Shown: positions 30,346-37,732 of the stretch, piece after piece
Position numbering within the stretch: position 1 is the first letter of the stretch
How the letters are laid out: each line of letters starts with the position of its first letter
Assembly: GCA_000993565.1 (NCBI GenBank)
Contig: LBWK01000001.1
Coordinates: 148,869-198,408 of the forward strand
From: a candidate division WS6 bacterium GW2011_GWF2_39_15
GTDB taxonomy: Bacteria; Patescibacteriota; Dojkabacteria; SC72
Length of the DNA: 49,540 nt
Reading direction: 5' to 3'
Position numbers and translations under genes: made by a program
The notes under the pieces: generated by a model
What the model was told of the DNA's origin: nothing
Databases searched by the model: none
The model's input: the letters and a program-made list of their open reading frames with translations, nothing else

Positions 30346-32070
30346 ATGCATATGGCATTACCATTAAGGCCTCAAAATCCACCTTCAGACAGGAAATCAA
30401 GTGAAACATATTTATCCCCTTACAGGGAACGCTATATTACTGAATCCGAGGATAATTCGGTAGAGCTAGATAGGTTAAGAATCACCTGGCAGGCAATACT
30501 TGAAGGGTCATGGAACATGTCACGAGAAATGGAAGTACTATCCATTAACAGAGGTCAAAATGAACAAGAATATACCAGGGAAAGAGTTGCACCCAATACA
30601 CCGGTCTCTTCATTAAATGCTGACAATAAAGGAATCTTTCAAATTACCCTTAGGTCAGTCCAGGATCCGAGAATAGGTCCTAATGGAAGACGGATGGACG
30701 GAGGCGCTCCGACAGGTGAGGGTATGCTAAGCACTGGGATTGAAGTAGACTGTGCCATTTATGAACCTGATGCCGATAGAAACCATTTCTATAGAGATTT
30801 TAATATATTTCCTCCCAGTCAGATACCAATGGATAGTGAAGGAACAATTGCTACCAGCGGAGTTATAGAACTTAACGGTGTATACCAGACACGTACGAGG
30901 AACATCATTATACTTGAACGCATACCCATAGGCGGCAGGATCAAGTTGGTCGCGACTCAAATTCGTATATACCTTCCCATTACGGATGGACAGATCAGCG
31001 AACTTGAGCAAAATGGCTACCACGAAGCGGGACTTGTCAGGGAATCCTCAGCCCAGGCAGTTGACTTGCTTAACGATCTGACCAGGCTCTATGAAGAGAG
31101 AGTCCATGCAAGAAGGATAGGGAATGTCATCCCTGAAGCTCACCAAACTCAAGAGATTCAGTCTCACGATAATTCCACAGCTGTTAACGAACCCTCCTCC
31201 AGCCCCACGACAATACCGACACTTACAACTCCCCATATAGTTGAACCTCCTTCTTTGACATCAATTTCTGGTACCACAGTTAGTCAACCACGAACAGGTC
31301 TCTCGGATTGGGCACAAGACCAAGAAAGGCAGTTTTTTGAAAATGACAGACCAAGAATTCAGCAGGAAGTTGAGGCACGGGTACTTGCTGAACTGGAAGC
31401 GGCACGACAGAGAAATGCTTCTCAAAGAGCAGAAAGAATAACTACAAGAGAGGAAAGGATAACACATGGATTAAGAGATGCAATAAGAGGGAAACTGAAT
31501 GCGGCAGTAACCTCCCAGGCATTCGATGATTTACAATGGAAAGATGATCTAGATGGTAGACGAAGGTATGAGACATCAGCTGTATGGGGAACGAAAATCC
31601 AAGCCACCATTTCATTACTTGATGAACTTAGCGGAAGGAAGACGCAAAGCACACAGGATGCTTCACAACCAAGGCAAAGGGGCAGAAGTATGGAGGATCT
31701 TATTTCTGCTATGGGACCAAGGCCTAATGAACATCCTATGTACAAAGTAATTACGAGGGCAATAGAGCAAAGGGATGGTTTTATATCAAACCGGAATCAG
31801 GCCTTTGTTCTTAGAGGGATGGAATATGACGGTATGTACTCCAATGAGTGGTATTTAGTAGAAAGAATCCTTGATCCCAATGACAATGAGTGGAAAACTG
31901 CGGTATCAATAATTGCTGTTATACCTTCTAAACCTTTAACGGAAACCGAATACTTAGCAACAGCTAGAAGCATATTTGATAACTATCTGATTGATAACGG
32001 TAGGGATATTGCTACTGAGAGAGTAGATATACGAAACATGGCGCGTCACTCTGTACGGTATATCAACTAG
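30346..32070 (+). CDS. Unknown 574-residue soluble protein with central coiled coil
   Basis: No known family recognised. Residues 1-60 are polar; 90-245 form a beta-rich globular region (FQITLRSVQDPRI, VELNGVYQTRTRNIIILE pattern). Residues 268-315 are a Ser/Thr/Pro linker, 325-390 a charged helix with heptad-like Leu/Ala spacing (RPRIQQEVEARVLAELEAAR), and 400-574 a second globular part ending VRYIN. There is no signal peptide or membrane segment, so the protein is cytoplasmic unless exported by another route. It starts at ATG 30346, downstream of a decayed gene, and is followed by the second copy of a repeat element. Glu/Arg/Gln content is high, as in scaffold or nucleic-acid-binding proteins; function unknown. 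Confidence 0.75.
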   Translation: MHMALPLRPQNPPSDRKSSETYLSPYRERYITESEDNSVELDRLRITWQAILEGSWNMSREMEVLSINRGQNEQEYTRERVAPNTPVSSLNADNKGIFQITLRSVQDPRIGPNGRRMDGGAPTGEGMLSTGIEVDCAIYEPDADRNHFYRDFNIFPPSQIPMDSEGTIATSGVIELNGVYQTRTRNIIILERIPIGGRIKLVATQIRIYLPITDGQISELEQNGYHEAGLVRESSAQAVDLLNDLTRLYEERVHARRIGNVIPEAHQTQEIQSHDNSTAVNEPSSSPTTIPTLTTPHIVEPPSLTSISGTTVSQPRTGLSDWAQDQERQFFENDRPRIQQEVEARVLAELEAARQRNASQRAERITTREERITHGLRDAIRGKLNAAVTSQAFDDLQWKDDLDGRRRYETSAVWGTKIQATISLLDELSGRKTQSTQDASQPRQRGRSMEDLISAMGPRPNEHPMYKVITRAIEQRDGFISNRNQAFVLRGMEYDGMYSNEWYLVERILDPNDNEWKTAVSIIAVIPSKPLTETEYLATARSIFDNYLIDNGRDIATERVDIRNMARHSVRYIN

Positions 32071-32217: not shown

Positions 32218-33399
32218 ATGCCAACACTAGTTAATCGACAAGCAAGAAGAATGAACTCACTTGGAGAATATTTCTTTTCACGTGCCCATAAAAAGATTGA
32301 TCAATTAGCTTCAACAGGAAGAACAATCATTAATCTGGGAATTGGCAGTCCTGATTTAGCCCCGTCTCCATTAGTGATTAAAGAATTAGCTCAAAAAGCT
32401 TCTGATTCATCCATGCACGCATATCCAAGTTATTCAGGTTTACTAAAATTCCGTACTGAAATTGCAAATTGGTACCAAAGAGAGTTTGGTGTGAAAATTG
32501 ATCCTCAAAATATGGTTCAACCAACTTCTGGATCGAAGGAAGGAATTGTATTCACAACACTTGCTCTGGTTAACCCCGGAGAAGAAGTGCTCATTCCAAA
32601 CCCTGGTTTTGCTACATATGAGAGGGCTGCAATTATTGCTGGTGCTATACCAAGAATGTACTCACTTGATAGAGAAAATGGGTATCAGCCTTCATTTGAA
32701 TCACTCGAGAAAACAGATCTTTCAAAGGTAAAATTAATGTGGATTAACTACCCACATAACCCGACTGGCTCAACCGCATCAATAAAGCAGTTAGAAGAAA
32801 TTGTTAAATTCGCAAAAAAGCACTCAATCATCTTAGTAAGTGATAATCCATATTCACACATCTCATTTGGTAGAAACCACGAGTCAAGTGTACTAGAAAT
32901 ACCAGGAGCTTTAGATATAGCTGTTGAACTTAATTCTTTGAGTAAAACATACAATATGGCAGGTTGGAGACTTGGGTGGGTAGTTGGTAATCCAAAACTA
33001 ATGAAAGCCATTGCCGCTATTTATAGCAATATTGAGACAGGTATTTTTAATCCTATTCAGTATGCTGGCGTTAAAGCCCTACAGTTACCCCAAGCCTTTA
33101 TAAGTGAAAGGAATGAAATCTACCGAAAAAGATCTATTATAGCTACCGAAATAGCCAAAATAATTGGATGTGAGACTTATGAAACTAAGGCCTCTCTATA
33201 TGTTTGGGCTAAACTACCACAGAAAGTGGTAAATGCCGAAGAATTCTGTTTTAACTTGCTTGAAAATACTGGCGTATTTATTACCCCAGGAACTGCTTTT
33301 GGAAGCAATGGCGACGGGTATATACGTATAGCGTTATGCCAGTCAGAAGAGGTTTTACTAAAGGCAAAGCACATGATAGAAGAATATCTCACTAGCTAA
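32218..33399 (+). CDS. Class I/II PLP-dependent aminotransferase (DapL/AspC-like)
   Basis: A 393-residue fold-type I aminotransferase. NLGIGSPDLAPSP is the N-terminal substrate arm, SGSKEGI the PLP phosphate-binding turn, NYPHNPTG the ring-stacking motif, SDNPYSHI the Asp that contacts the pyridine nitrogen, and SLSKTYNMAGWRLGW carries the Schiff-base Lys243. The C-terminal RIALCQ holds the carboxylate-binding arginine. It resembles LL-diaminopimelate and broad aspartate/aromatic aminotransferases; substrate is not settled. It heads a tight cluster with a ThDP enzyme 17 nt downstream, a cupin and a threonine-synthase-like enzyme, so it probably feeds or drains a 2-oxo acid for that pathway. 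Confidence 0.9.
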   Translation: MPTLVNRQARRMNSLGEYFFSRAHKKIDQLASTGRTIINLGIGSPDLAPSPLVIKELAQKASDSSMHAYPSYSGLLKFRTEIANWYQREFGVKIDPQNMVQPTSGSKEGIVFTTLALVNPGEEVLIPNPGFATYERAAIIAGAIPRMYSLDRENGYQPSFESLEKTDLSKVKLMWINYPHNPTGSTASIKQLEEIVKFAKKHSIILVSDNPYSHISFGRNHESSVLEIPGALDIAVELNSLSKTYNMAGWRLGWVVGNPKLMKAIAAIYSNIETGIFNPIQYAGVKALQLPQAFISERNEIYRKRSIIATEIAKIIGCETYETKASLYVWAKLPQKVVNAEEFCFNLLENTGVFITPGTAFGSNGDGYIRIALCQSEEVLLKAKHMIEEYLTS

Positions 33400-33416
33400 A
33401 TTTTAATCCCTTTCCC

Positions 33417-35042
33417 ATGAAATTCTATGAGTATATCAATAAGACACTCAAGGAATATGGGTGTCGCAAAGCATTTGGAGTACCTGGAGGGCAAGTCAAG
33501 CCTTTATGGCAGAACATGGACGATATAGAGATCATTACCTGCGCACATGAACAAGAAGCTTCTTATGTAGCAACTGGCTATTCAAAAGCTTCCGGTGAGC
33601 TGGTTGCAGTCATAACAATTGGCAGCCCAGGAGTTACAAACTGTGCAAGCGGTATTGCCTCTGCGAATATGGATTCAGTCCCCATGATTTATATATCAGG
33701 ACAACCTCCTGTAAGATTTAAAGGTTTAGGATCATTACAAGAAGAAAGTCAGGTCAACAGATCATTCGACTCAGCAGATATATTAAAGAAACTAACCAAA
33801 CAGACTATAGAAATTAACAATATAACCAATGCAGCTCAAATATTTTCTGATAGCTGCAAGAAAGCACTCTCAGGAAGAACTGGCTGTGTTCATATAAGTA
33901 TTCCAGTTGATATTCAGGCGATGGAGTTACCAGAGAGTGAGCTAATCCATAAAAAAGCTGAAAAAAAAGAGGTCGCGATTCCAAATCTTCCTAAAATTAC
34001 TAAACCACTCGTAATTATTGGATGGGGAAGCTGGCAAGCCAAAGCTACTAAACAAATCTATGAACTAGCTGAAAAGATTGGAGCTCCTGTATTAGTTACC
34101 TCAAAAGCATCTTGTTGCATATGGGGTGAACACCCTAACTATCTAGGGAAATTGGGTTATGGTTACAATCCAGTTCTTGAAAAATTTATTGAGGAATATT
34201 CCCCTGAACAAGTATTAGTATTTGGATCATCAATGGCTAGAAAAAATGTATCCGAATCATTTCTTAATATAATCAAACGTGCCACGACTTACCTATATTC
34301 AATCGAGTGTGAAGATGTAACCTTCCGATTCCCTAGTGGAAATTGGATCCAAGTTGATGACATGGCTTCAATGATTAAATTGTGGATTAAAAATGTAAAA
34401 CCGTCAAAGCAGAAGATCCATTACAATCTCAAAACTGTTCGCGAAAATCAGATGAGATTTTTCTCTGACAATATAAACGATCAAGACCTCATGGCGAAAG
34501 CAATTTTAGAACTTAATAATTTATGTGACGAAACTTGTGTAATATCTGCTGATGCAGGAAACCATTTGCTCGATGCGGCAATAATGTATGAACCTAAGCA
34601 AATTGGTGGAATGTTTCTTGACGTTGGAATCCGTGCAATGGGAAGTGGGCCATGTACATCAACTGGTATGGCCGTTGCTTTAAGGGACAAATTCCAAATT
34701 GCGGTTACAGGCGACGGGAGTATGTTGATGAATGGCAATGTAATGGCAGTGGCTAAACGAATGAACCTTCCAATACTTTTCCTCGTAACAAACAACTCTT
34801 CACTTGGACGAGTGCGAATAGGGCAAATGGATGAACAAAAATTTATCGGAACCGACCTTGAAAATATAGATTTCACTATGTATGGAAAGACTTTCGGCTT
34901 GAAAACCTATACAGCATCATCTATAGATGAATTTCGTAGTGCGATGAAGAAAATATTAGCAGAAAAAAAGACTGCTTTACTGGAACTCTTAACAGATAAA
35001 GACGAGATTCCGCCATCACTGAAAGGAAAGCCGTTATTCTAA
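33417..35042 (+). CDS. Thiamine-diphosphate enzyme of the acetolactate synthase superfamily
   Basis: A 541-residue ThDP enzyme with the three usual domains: PYR (1-170), central (about 185-330) and PP (360-530). The activating glutamate is Glu45 in AHEQEASYVATGYSKASG; the diphosphate-binding motif starts with GDGS (Gly432-Asp433-Gly434) and ends with the Asn pair in LVTNNSSLG. GSPGVTNCASGIASANMDS and VHISIPVDIQ are typical acetolactate-synthase-type strands. The usual ALS FAD-binding region is not evident to me. Candidate activities are decarboxylation of a 2-oxo acid or transfer of its acyl or aldehyde unit. There is no ilvN or ilvC neighbour, which argues against valine synthesis. The aminotransferase upstream may make its substrate. 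Confidence 0.88.
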   Translation: MKFYEYINKTLKEYGCRKAFGVPGGQVKPLWQNMDDIEIITCAHEQEASYVATGYSKASGELVAVITIGSPGVTNCASGIASANMDSVPMIYISGQPPVRFKGLGSLQEESQVNRSFDSADILKKLTKQTIEINNITNAAQIFSDSCKKALSGRTGCVHISIPVDIQAMELPESELIHKKAEKKEVAIPNLPKITKPLVIIGWGSWQAKATKQIYELAEKIGAPVLVTSKASCCIWGEHPNYLGKLGYGYNPVLEKFIEEYSPEQVLVFGSSMARKNVSESFLNIIKRATTYLYSIECEDVTFRFPSGNWIQVDDMASMIKLWIKNVKPSKQKIHYNLKTVRENQMRFFSDNINDQDLMAKAILELNNLCDETCVISADAGNHLLDAAIMYEPKQIGGMFLDVGIRAMGSGPCTSTGMAVALRDKFQIAVTGDGSMLMNGNVMAVAKRMNLPILFLVTNNSSLGRVRIGQMDEQKFIGTDLENIDFTMYGKTFGLKTYTASSIDEFRSAMKKILAEKKTALLELLTDKDEIPPSLKGKPLF

Positions 35043-35063
35043 TTTAAAATTTTGAAATCAGTC

Positions 35064-35432
35064 ATGAATATTATCAAGAACAAAGAATTGGGAGAGTTTT
35101 TCAGGCATTCCTTCAAATTAATGCAGAGTTTTGAACATGGAAGAAGGTATTATCATACATTAACAAAAGAGGATAATAGTCCCGTTGTTATTCGAAAGAA
35201 TACAGATCAAATTACTTATGTTGCGGAAGGGAGTGGAACAGTTTATTTAGATGGGAAGGAGCAGAAGATTAAGGCAGGAGAAACTATTCTAATTGTATCG
35301 GGAACAACTATACGTTTCGTAGCAAGTTCAGAAAAGTTAACTCTTTTCCATATTCATATACCAGATACAGGAAGAGAGAATGATCGACAAATTTTAGAAG
35401 GAAAGGACTTTAACTACTACAAAGTTAAGTAA
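35064..35432 (+). CDS. Cupin-domain protein without obvious metal ligands
   Basis: A 122-residue single cupin. YVAEGSGTVYLDGKEQKIKAG marks the first conserved half-barrel and TLFHIHIP the end of the second. The usual HxH ligands of motif 1 and the His of motif 2 (here TTIRFVA) are not in their normal places, so it is probably a binding or isomerising protein rather than a metal oxygenase, or uses the later HIH pair. A TTG at 35052 is an alternative start giving 4 extra residues; the ATG at 35064 fits better. It sits 21 nt after the ThDP gene and 41 nt before the threonine-synthase-like gene, so it is one transcription unit. Confidence 0.8.
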   Translation: MNIIKNKELGEFFRHSFKLMQSFEHGRRYYHTLTKEDNSPVVIRKNTDQITYVAEGSGTVYLDGKEQKIKAGETILIVSGTTIRFVASSEKLTLFHIHIPDTGRENDRQILEGKDFNYYKVK

Positions 35433-35473
35433 TCCTTAATAGTATTTAATATAAATTAATAAGGTTTATACAA

Positions 35474-36598
35474 ATGACAAAAGCACCTCTCGTTTACTTC
35501 TGTATGGATTGTTCTTTTTCCTCTGACGGAAAACATTATAAAAAATGCCCAAACTGTGGTGGAGTAATCTCATATAGACGTGCAGATAATAAATACCACA
35601 TAGAAAAAGGTGAATATGATGTCGAGAGATACTGGGATTTTCTTCCGCTTCAAGATCCAACTAAACTCATCCGTAAAGGAAATAAGAGAACTCCTTTGAC
35701 TGAATCCCAAGAGTTCAAATCAAAATATCCTGCAACGAAAGTTATGTTGAAAGACGAGACAAAAACCGTAACTGGATCTAGTAAAGACAGAATGGCAGTT
35801 GTCGCATTAAGTCAGTTGAATGAATTTGGAGAAAAATCCATTGTAGTTAGCAGCACAGGGAATGTTGCTAGTGCAAGCGCCTGGCTCTTACGCAATCATC
35901 CTGAGTTTCAGTTGCATTGCTTCATTGCAGACGAATTTGTACCAAGGCATAGATTTATGGATGCCCCAAACATTACAGTTCATAGAGTTAATTCAGATTA
36001 TGATGCAGCAATAAAAGAGGGTATCCAATTCTCAAGTGAAAATAATGTATATCATGACGGAGGATATTTTAGTGTTGCAAAAAGGGCGGGACTTGGAATG
36101 GCGTTTATAGAAGCATGGGAGCAATCAAATTTAACCTTTGATTATTATTTCCAAGCATCAAGCAGTGGAATGGGAGTATTAGGCGTTTATGAAGTAGCTA
36201 AGAAGATGAAAGATAGTGGAATGATAGATAGAATACCAGCACTTATGCCTGTACAGCAGAGCTCGTGCGACCCAATGGTAAAGGCGTTTGAAGCCGGTGA
36301 AGAAAAGATATTACCTGAATTTATTGTTGATAAGCCAAGAGGGATAGCCAAAGCAATTTTAACTGGAGATCCAACAGTTTGCTATCCAAGCTTATACAAA
36401 GTAGTTAAGGAGACTAATGGTTCATTTATATCCGTAACTGAAGAGGAGATTAGGTCTGCAGAAAAGCATTTAAATAAAGTTGAGAATATTAAGGCAACCG
36501 CAGATGGAGCTGTTGCTTTAGCAGGATTTATAAAATATGCTGAGACTCATGCGGATGAACTTAAGGGGAAGAATGTATTAGTAAATATAACAGGTTAA
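35474..36598 (+). CDS. Threonine-synthase-like PLP enzyme with N-terminal zinc ribbon
   Basis: A 374-residue fold-type II PLP enzyme. An N-terminal zinc ribbon has Cys10, Cys13, Cys25 and Cys28. WDFLPLQDP and RTPLTES follow, then the PLP lysine motif TVTGSSKDRMA (Lys104) and the phosphate-binding SSTGNVASASAWL. The family includes threonine synthase and the related cysteate synthase of coenzyme M biosynthesis, which take a phosphorylated amino acid and do a beta or gamma replacement. No homoserine kinase or other threonine pathway gene is nearby, so a different product is plausible. Last gene of the four-gene cluster; the tRNA-His gene faces it 52 nt downstream. Confidence 0.87.
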   Translation: MTKAPLVYFCMDCSFSSDGKHYKKCPNCGGVISYRRADNKYHIEKGEYDVERYWDFLPLQDPTKLIRKGNKRTPLTESQEFKSKYPATKVMLKDETKTVTGSSKDRMAVVALSQLNEFGEKSIVVSSTGNVASASAWLLRNHPEFQLHCFIADEFVPRHRFMDAPNITVHRVNSDYDAAIKEGIQFSSENNVYHDGGYFSVAKRAGLGMAFIEAWEQSNLTFDYYFQASSSGMGVLGVYEVAKKMKDSGMIDRIPALMPVQQSSCDPMVKAFEAGEEKILPEFIVDKPRGIAKAILTGDPTVCYPSLYKVVKETNGSFISVTEEEIRSAEKHLNKVENIKATADGAVALAGFIKYAETHADELKGKNVLVNITG

Positions 36599-36649: not shown

Positions 36650-36727
36650 TGGGGTGGAAGATGGGACTTGAACCCACAACCCTCGGTTCCACAAACCGAT
36701 GCTCTAACCAGTTGAGCTACATCCACC
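36650..36727 (-). tRNA. tRNA-His (anticodon GTG)
   Basis: Cloverleaf with anticodon stem TCGGT/ACCGA around TTGTGGA (anticodon GTG), T-arm GTGGG-TTCAAGT-CCCAT, and the extra G-1 paired with C73 that identifies histidine tRNA. CCA is encoded. The acceptor has one T-T mismatch at pair 6-67. Confidence 0.93.
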
Positions 36728-36769: not shown

Positions 36770-37732
36770 TCAATTATTCTTTTTCAACAAGGGTAATACT
36801 TTATCTATAAACTCCCTACACGAACTACATCCGCCATCGAAATACACCTGCGATATAACCTCATCAAGCTTCTCAGCATTACCTCCATATCTTTTCACCA
36901 TTTCAGGATCATCAGCCATATGTCTAAACTCTCTCTTCCAAAGCTTATTGATATGAAGATCCATACTATAACTTGGGTTTTTCTTCACCGTTCCAGTATC
37001 CGCCTTATCTGTAGAATTATCATCTACAAACATGTTGTAGCCGGTTATTAAGGTAAACACTGTGGACGCAAAACATCTTATATCATTATCTTTAAAATCT
37101 TCAAAAGTTATAGCGTTACCCGATATAACAATAGGGGAAACATATCCGGGAGAACCAGCAAGATATGTTTTATGTGCAGGACCAATTGCCAGCGGACTCA
37201 AACCTACGTCCACCACCTTCATTTCATGCACCCTTACATCATATTCCTCGCCTTCTGGAAGCATTATAGAGGAAGGCTTAATATCTCCATGTGTAACTCC
37301 CAATTCATGCAAGTAATCAAAAACACTCCCCGCCTTATTTATAATCATGCTTAAAAAAGGCTCTTCAAGCCTACCCAACTGCTTTAAAGTCTTGCCCTCT
37401 ACCCATTCCATAACTATCATGGGTAGGGGACCAACATCAGTCTGGGCGACACAGAAATCATAAACTTTAACAACATTGGGATCTGTAATCTGTGCAAGAA
37501 GCTTTGCCTCCCTGACAAAAGTTTTAAATTCTGAATCATCTTCAATATCGCTATAAATTTTAGTACCAGGCAAAATCATCTTCAGAGCGATTGCTCTATC
37601 CATCATTTTATCCTTCCCTTTAAAGACTGCTGCCATCCCACCTGTTTTTACATAATCGTCACTAACTTCAACACAATATCTATCACTCTCCACCGTATGA
37701 TAGTACCCTAATAATCCGTCCGGGATGCCCAC
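36770..37732 (-). CDS. Hanks-type protein kinase-like protein with altered catalytic loop
   Basis: A 320-residue kinase fold, no membrane segment. Glycine loop VKTGGMAAVFKG (residues 29-40), VAIK-type Lys51 in IALKMI, alpha-C Glu75 in REAKLL, catalytic loop HGDIKPSSIML with Asp150 and Lys152, and DVG at 175-177 in place of DFG. The metal-binding Asn of the canonical DIKPSN is Ser155, HRD is HGD, and the APE motif is replaced by SPGYVSP. Activity could be low or absent, yet the lysine and two aspartates remain. The C-terminal 60 residues have a FDGGCSSC cysteine pair. GTG start at 37732, 6 nt after the 37-residue frame. Substrate unknown. Confidence 0.82.
   Translation of the reverse strand: MGIPDGLLGYYHTVESDRYCVEVSDDYVKTGGMAAVFKGKDKMMDRAIALKMILPGTKIYSDIEDDSEFKTFVREAKLLAQITDPNVVKVYDFCVAQTDVGPLPMIVMEWVEGKTLKQLGRLEEPFLSMIINKAGSVFDYLHELGVTHGDIKPSSIMLPEGEEYDVRVHEMKVVDVGLSPLAIGPAHKTYLAGSPGYVSPIVISGNAITFEDFKDNDIRCFASTVFTLITGYNMFVDDNSTDKADTGTVKKNPSYSMDLHINKLWKREFRHMADDPEMVKRYGGNAEKLDEVISQVYFDGGCSSCREFIDKVLPLLKKNN

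Follow-up and report, generated by a model that had tools for sequence, protein, structure and literature searches.

A conserved four-gene cassette of Patescibacteria and the small-molecule pathway it may encode

The genomes of Patescibacteria are strongly reduced, and the common assumption is that these bacteria import what they need. A cluster of four genes related to amino acid enzymes raises the question of what such a cell makes with them. The cluster lies in a 49,540-nucleotide stretch of candidate division WS6 bacterium GW2011_GWF2_39_15 (contig LBWK01000001.1, positions 148,869 to 198,408; G000:C1:148869-198408), which is referred to in full as the window and belongs to a Patescibacteria-type genome of about 0.9 Mb (899 kb) that is 95% complete. 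The genes encode an aminotransferase, a thiamine diphosphate (ThDP) enzyme, a cupin and a threonine-synthase-like pyridoxal phosphate (PLP) enzyme. The answer toward which we lean, at slightly less than even confidence, is that this cassette is a stand-alone operon for a self-contained short pathway that passed as one unit, by horizontal transfer, from one lineage of Patescibacteria to another. More tentatively, it could be an undescribed mobile pathway of this phylum that makes a beta-substituted alanine and carries it through the oxo acid to an aldehyde or acyloin. The product might be a sulfonate formed independently of ComABC and ComDE, and an amino-acid auxotroph might use it on its surface, for signalling or as a secreted metabolite.

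Extent, distribution and selection of the cassette

The cassette consists of four intact open reading frames (ORFs) in tandem on the forward strand, separated by successive gaps of 17, 9 and 41 nt. The aminotransferase (32218-33399, 393 amino acids (aa); Pfam Aminotran_1_2, PF00155, 217 bits) is followed by the ThDP enzyme (33417-35042, 541 aa), which is matched over its full length by TPP_enzyme N/M/C at 101/48/82 bits. Next are the cupin (35052-35432, 126 aa when read from a TTG; Cupin_2, 30 bits) and the PLP enzyme (35474-36598, 374 aa; PALP, 134 bits). ORFs, gaps and Pfam assignments agree with a preliminary description of this DNA as a packed cluster of these four families.

The same description had proposed looking for the four genes in other genomes, and one further genome was found to carry them, linked in order. 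The second cassette is situated on JAHJGY010000063.1, a contig of a Patescibacteria metagenome-assembled genome (G151) from a modern marine glass biofilm. It was discovered in a scan of named genome contigs that used only two N-terminal zinc-ribbon peptide patterns, by which relatives differing at those sites would be missed. All four genes are present in identical order, with protein identities of 78% for the aminotransferase (over its 3' three quarters), 68% for the ThDP enzyme, 77% for the cupin and 72% for the PLP enzyme. Four genes in one order at 68-78% identity in a distant genome indicate that the cassette is more than a chance arrangement. The aminotransferase of the second copy (36-1228 of its contig) is broken by a frameshift within the first 91 codons, which may be real or an assembly error. 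Past the second cassette the next gene has no relation to it and lies on the opposite strand; conservation is therefore confined to the four genes, although the contig begins just upstream of them. By two counting methods, the nonsynonymous distance (dN) between the copies is 0.12-0.20, while the synonymous distance (dS) is above 0.7 or saturated. Therefore, all four genes, including the cupin, are under purifying selection.

The distribution of the cassette is extremely narrow. Three overlapping genome samples were searched. Among 97 genomes comprising the window genome and its relatives (31 of the same family), an orthologue of the PLP enzyme exists only in the window genome. Phylum-wide it exists in 2 of 380 genomes, those of the two cassettes, and orthologues of the ThDP enzyme and the cupin were found in exactly the same two. 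A search of 393 genomes of another class, for which there was no separate positive control, returned no orthologue of the PLP enzyme. The second genome belongs to a different class from the window genome, and only one of eight genomes of that class has the cassette. That two distant lineages have the whole set and the others none of it indicates horizontal movement of the cassette as a block between Patescibacteria lineages, with loss elsewhere as the alternative. Scans of viral contigs with four alignments returned no relatives. In plasmids the cupin had no match, and the other proteins matched nothing nearer than distant threonine synthases, acetolactate synthases and aminotransferases of aromatic operons. 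Further copies may exist beyond those found.

Sequence features of the four proteins

The PLP enzyme is a fold-type-II protein of the threonine-synthase superfamily with N-terminal zinc-ribbon-like cysteines. Its Schiff-base Lys104 lies in GSSKDR (GTSKDR in the second copy), and STGN is kept in both copies. In the region where threonine synthase has GQKT, the window enzyme reads GGYFSVAKRAGL. At the G-Q-K-T site of many threonine synthases both cassette copies have GGYFSVAKRAGLGM, and the cysteate synthase 9k3c has GGAKNIARRDGMAT. It can be seen that GLGM stands in place of GQKT and that this threonine synthase mark is absent, a mark which is typical and not universal, as 2 reference threonine synthases are also without the exact GQKT. 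Moreover, the motif GG..[NS][IV]A[RK]R.G[LM] is common to both copies and cysteate synthase 9k3c and is missing from all 32 further PALP proteins compared; the same distribution is displayed by YYFQA/FYFQA.

Comparisons with profiles, structures and trees place the enzyme beside cysteate synthase and outside its formal limits. The best NCBIfam model is that of cysteate synthase, TIGR03844, with 116 bits. Models of threonine synthase reach no more than 110, and all scores are below the cut-offs. The two copies reach 116.6 and 107.8 bits against a curated TIGR03844 cut-off of 324.9. Of 14 control genomes, 12, including Methanosarcina acetivorans, give some match to this model and exactly one passes the cut-off. 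In the Protein Data Bank (PDB), cysteate synthase 9k3c and threonine synthases are the best matches, with nearly equal scores. The preliminary description had also proposed placing each enzyme by phylogeny. Maximum-likelihood trees unite both copies of the PLP enzyme with cysteate synthase (support 94/87 when every row is included, 89/95 once the longest other branches are taken out), and an approximately unbiased (AU) test against grouping them with threonine synthases gave p ~0.03. The cysteate synthase reference is one sequence on a long branch (283 aa of PDB 9k3c), so this grouping is moderate evidence. Taken with the motif, it moderately suggests that cysteate synthase, and not the threonine synthases, is the nearer relative of the PLP enzyme. 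The enzyme may function as a cysteate synthase does, though it is not classed as one. The likeness to cysteate synthase that was first proposed thus holds for motif and tree placement and fails at the profile cut-off.

The ThDP enzyme is a full-length, three-domain member of the acetolactate-synthase superfamily, as first described and unlike ComDE. The activating Glu45 and GDG...NN are kept. The arginine of the RFDDR motif of acetohydroxyacid synthase (AHAS), which we take from general knowledge of AHAS residue roles to be acceptor-binding (R276 of E. coli AHAS II), is replaced; the two copies read GSSMARK and GSSMGRK. E. coli IlvB and IlvI retain RFDDR. So does an AHAS-like protein encoded by a related genome in the same class (G054:C9), which looks like a genuine acetolactate synthase and has both RFDDR and MVRQWQ. 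A glycine occupies the position of AHAS II Trp464, as in BbmA and CsmA, and there is a 7-aa insert after Q108-E109. The profile of sulfopyruvate decarboxylase beta, TIGR03846, gives 28.8 and 39.8 bits against a cut-off of 221.5. This ComDE-beta score is nonspecific because the profile gives a match in 14 of 14 control genomes. The Xsc profile PRK07525 gives 140 bits against a cut-off of 620, below many AHAS profiles. These tests set the ThDP enzyme apart from AHAS, ComDE and Xsc alike, and it is predicted to be a decarboxylase or carboligase. Structures predicted from the two-sequence alignments had a mean predicted local distance difference test (pLDDT) score of only 36.6 for this protein and 39.7 for the PLP enzyme, too low to be of use.

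The nearest solved structures to the ThDP enzyme bring in an alternative, in which the cassette is a secondary-metabolite unit whose ThDP carboligase joins two 2-oxo acids in a ScyA-like manner, the aminotransferase supplies or aminates an oxo acid and the PLP enzyme tailors an amino acid partner. BbmA and CsmA (8x3x, 8x3z) are the best PDB matches, at 155-169 bits over the whole length and ahead of AHAS. They share the glycine and the absence of the AHAS arginine, and a ScyA-related profile scores 167 bits. However, these relatives are distant, and in the tree the ThDP enzyme occupies a long branch of its own with no supported grouping with BbmA or CsmA. An acyloin cassette of this kind is quite unlikely.

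The aminotransferase has the PLP class I/II fold and is nearest to the LL-diaminopimelate, aromatic and alanine types. No other of its kind was found in the genome, of which 79% of the 899 kb could be read; this is also the extent covered by all tblastn results below, the other 190 kb or so (G000:C1 about 296001-432000 and G000:C2 about 288001-342362) being masked as N. It is a near relative of DapL and falls below the limits of that family (422 bits against 507 for PRK09276; 413 against 593 for TIGR03540). Its PDB matches are 6l1l and 2x5d, and it is 42.6% identical to Bacteroidota aromatic-operon aminotransferases.

The cupin is small and single-domain. It was listed from TTG 35052; since the second copy aligns best from ATG 35064, the latter is the likelier start and would give 122 aa. 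Arg48 and Ile87 stand where related Patescibacteria cupins have metal-ligand histidines, and the His ligands of motifs 1 and 2 that mark metal-dependent cupins are lacking. The cupin is as conserved as the cassette enzymes, and a binding, isomerase or chaperone role may be inferred from these features.

A neighbouring aminotransferase and ThDP enzyme suggest a second alternative, the breakdown of amino acids. The PLP enzyme would act as an ammonia-lyase on amino acids resembling serine or threonine, while the other two enzymes would form a pair of the Ehrlich or arginine-transaminase type that turns imported amino acids into aldehydes. Many fold-type-II enzymes are ammonia-lyases, and the host appears auxotrophic. 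Moreover, in loci of 5-guanidino-2-oxopentanoate decarboxylase (AruH/AruI type, arginine transaminase pathway) a class I/II aminotransferase gene directly adjoins a full-length ThDP gene, as in the cassette. However, both cassette enzymes are distant from AruI and AruH (23-28% identity, partial for the ThDP enzyme), and those loci have no PLP beta-replacement enzyme or cupin. Threonine ammonia-lyase profiles score 44 bits or less on the PLP enzyme, compared to 116 for cysteate synthase, and the cassette has no aldehyde dehydrogenase or reductase. This alternative is rather unlikely.

Missing partners, proposed pathway and substrate supply

With E. coli queries, tblastn revealed no homologue of thrA/B/C, of ilvA/C/D/E/N or leuA, of serA/B/C, or of cysC/D/H/I/J/K/M in the readable genome. 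The CysN query matched what are in all likelihood translation GTPases. Queries for ThDP enzymes and class I aminotransferases matched only the cassette's own genes. A phosphonate pathway of the rhizocticin-like kind was also considered and rejected, as the E. coli PrpB query found no gene of the phosphoenolpyruvate (PEP)-mutase family in the readable genome. The lack of threonine or valine pathway partners reported at the outset is therefore borne out for the readable genome. The host appears to be auxotrophic for amino acids, and the cassette probably works without known amino-acid synthesis partners, on imported substrates.

These absences bear on whether the genes are merely diverged members of ordinary threonine or branched-chain amino acid synthesis. 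The cassette enzymes share superfamily, cofactor motifs and PLP lysine with threonine and acetolactate synthase, and a family-level likeness extends to the aminotransferase. Nevertheless, GQKT and the AHAS arginine are missing, and the thr and ilv partners, including thrA, thrB, ilvC, ilvD, ilvE and ilvN, were not found in the readable genome; by contrast, the AHAS-like protein of the related genome keeps both RFDDR and the Trp. For these reasons the cassette is, on sequence grounds, neither threonine nor branched-chain synthesis, and divergence from such genes is highly improbable. The initial view of an unusual small-molecule cassette outside these pathways is upheld.

For the proposed stand-alone pathway, we infer the following steps, substrates and product. 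First, the cysteate-synthase-like PLP enzyme would carry out a beta-replacement on an activated serine with an unspecified nucleophile, giving a beta-substituted alanine; the serine, acquired from outside the cell, would be O-phosphoserine or a different O-acylated or phosphorylated form. Second, the aminotransferase would convert this product to the matching 2-oxo acid. Third, the ThDP enzyme would decarboxylate the oxo acid to an aldehyde, or ligate the decarboxylated unit to an acceptor to give an acyloin. Lastly, the cupin, being without metal ligands, would bind, isomerise or chaperone an unstable intermediate. The side-by-side genes of an aminotransferase and a ThDP decarboxylase have a precedent in the 5-guanidino-2-oxopentanoate decarboxylase loci. 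Beta-replacement, transamination and a ThDP step appear to be the most economical order, by analogy with the coenzyme M route of Methanosarcina.

In that route, phosphoserine is converted to cysteate, sulfopyruvate and sulfoacetaldehyde (PMC12713407; PMC12068725). Its enzymes (cysteate synthase MA3297, aspartate aminotransferase and ComDE MA3298) represent the same three families, and their reactions follow the same sequence. The cassette differs in several respects. The PLP enzyme shares the GG..[NS][IV]A[RK]R.G[LM] motif and the clade of cysteate synthase, yet scores far below its cut-off. The ThDP enzyme is full length and acetolactate-synthase-type, and a dedicated DapL-like aminotransferase and a cupin belong to the operon. 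Moreover, coenzyme M chemistry is not expected in Patescibacteria. Bacterial cysteate synthase also serves sulfonolipids (PMC11211663); no acyltransferase partner exists among the four cassette genes.

The sulfonates cysteate, sulfopyruvate and sulfoacetaldehyde are one possible product family. As a special case of the proposed pathway, phosphoserine and sulfite would be converted through these compounds to a sulfonated surface group or secreted metabolite, as the preliminary description had suggested. The nearness of the PLP enzyme to cysteate synthase and the order of families match this route. It is opposed by the TIGR03844 score (116 bits against 325), by a ThDP enzyme that is neither specifically sulfopyruvate-decarboxylase-like nor close to Xsc, by the absence of cysH, cysI, cysD and cysC from the readable genome and of phosphoserine aminotransferase from both genomes, and by an operon without a sulfonate-using partner gene. 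Of the original idea, the resemblance to cysteate synthase stands, whereas the profile membership, the likeness to ComDE and the supply of phosphoserine and sulfite do not. A sulfonate product is improbable.

Several observations weigh against the proposed pathway as a whole, in addition to the single long-branched reference. Genes for serine, phosphoserine and sulfate assimilation were not found in the readable genome, so the substrates would have to be imported. A profile of SerC likewise found no member in either cassette genome, apart from one 16.5-bit fragment in the window genome, far below the cut-off. The PLP enzyme has Val, Gly and Tyr at the positions of threonine synthase Thr88, Asn154 and Ser155, which are presumably phosphate-binding; that the leaving group is a phosphate is therefore uncertain. 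Additionally, the role of the cupin in the pathway is unassigned.

A pathway that is under selection in a genome without found genes of serine, threonine, cysteine or branched-chain synthesis, and that is shared as a block across classes, suggests a product worth keeping. The cassette would be a tractable case for what Patescibacteria make for themselves or their hosts. The PLP enzyme, as a possible new branch beside cysteate synthase, bears on the origin of that activity from threonine synthase.

Surroundings of the cassette

Directly 5' of the cassette lies an orphan gene of 574 aa (30346-32070, + strand) without a Pfam or PHROG match. On the downstream side a Ser/Thr protein kinase is encoded on the - strand (36770-37732); no close homologue (E < 1e-30) was found in 58 related genomes, which makes the downstream flank lineage-specific as well. 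Promoter and terminator scans around the cassette gave nothing above chance level. At 37.4%, the GC content of the cassette differs little from the 38.7% of the readable genome; base composition therefore gives no sign of a recent foreign origin. An Rfam scan found no riboswitch and no family besides a tRNA-His (36650-36726), on the opposite strand to the cassette. Insertion beside this tRNA was considered and set aside, the contig of the second copy being without a tRNA. The 3' end of the tRNA-His is located 51 nt beyond the cassette end, a classic integration position.

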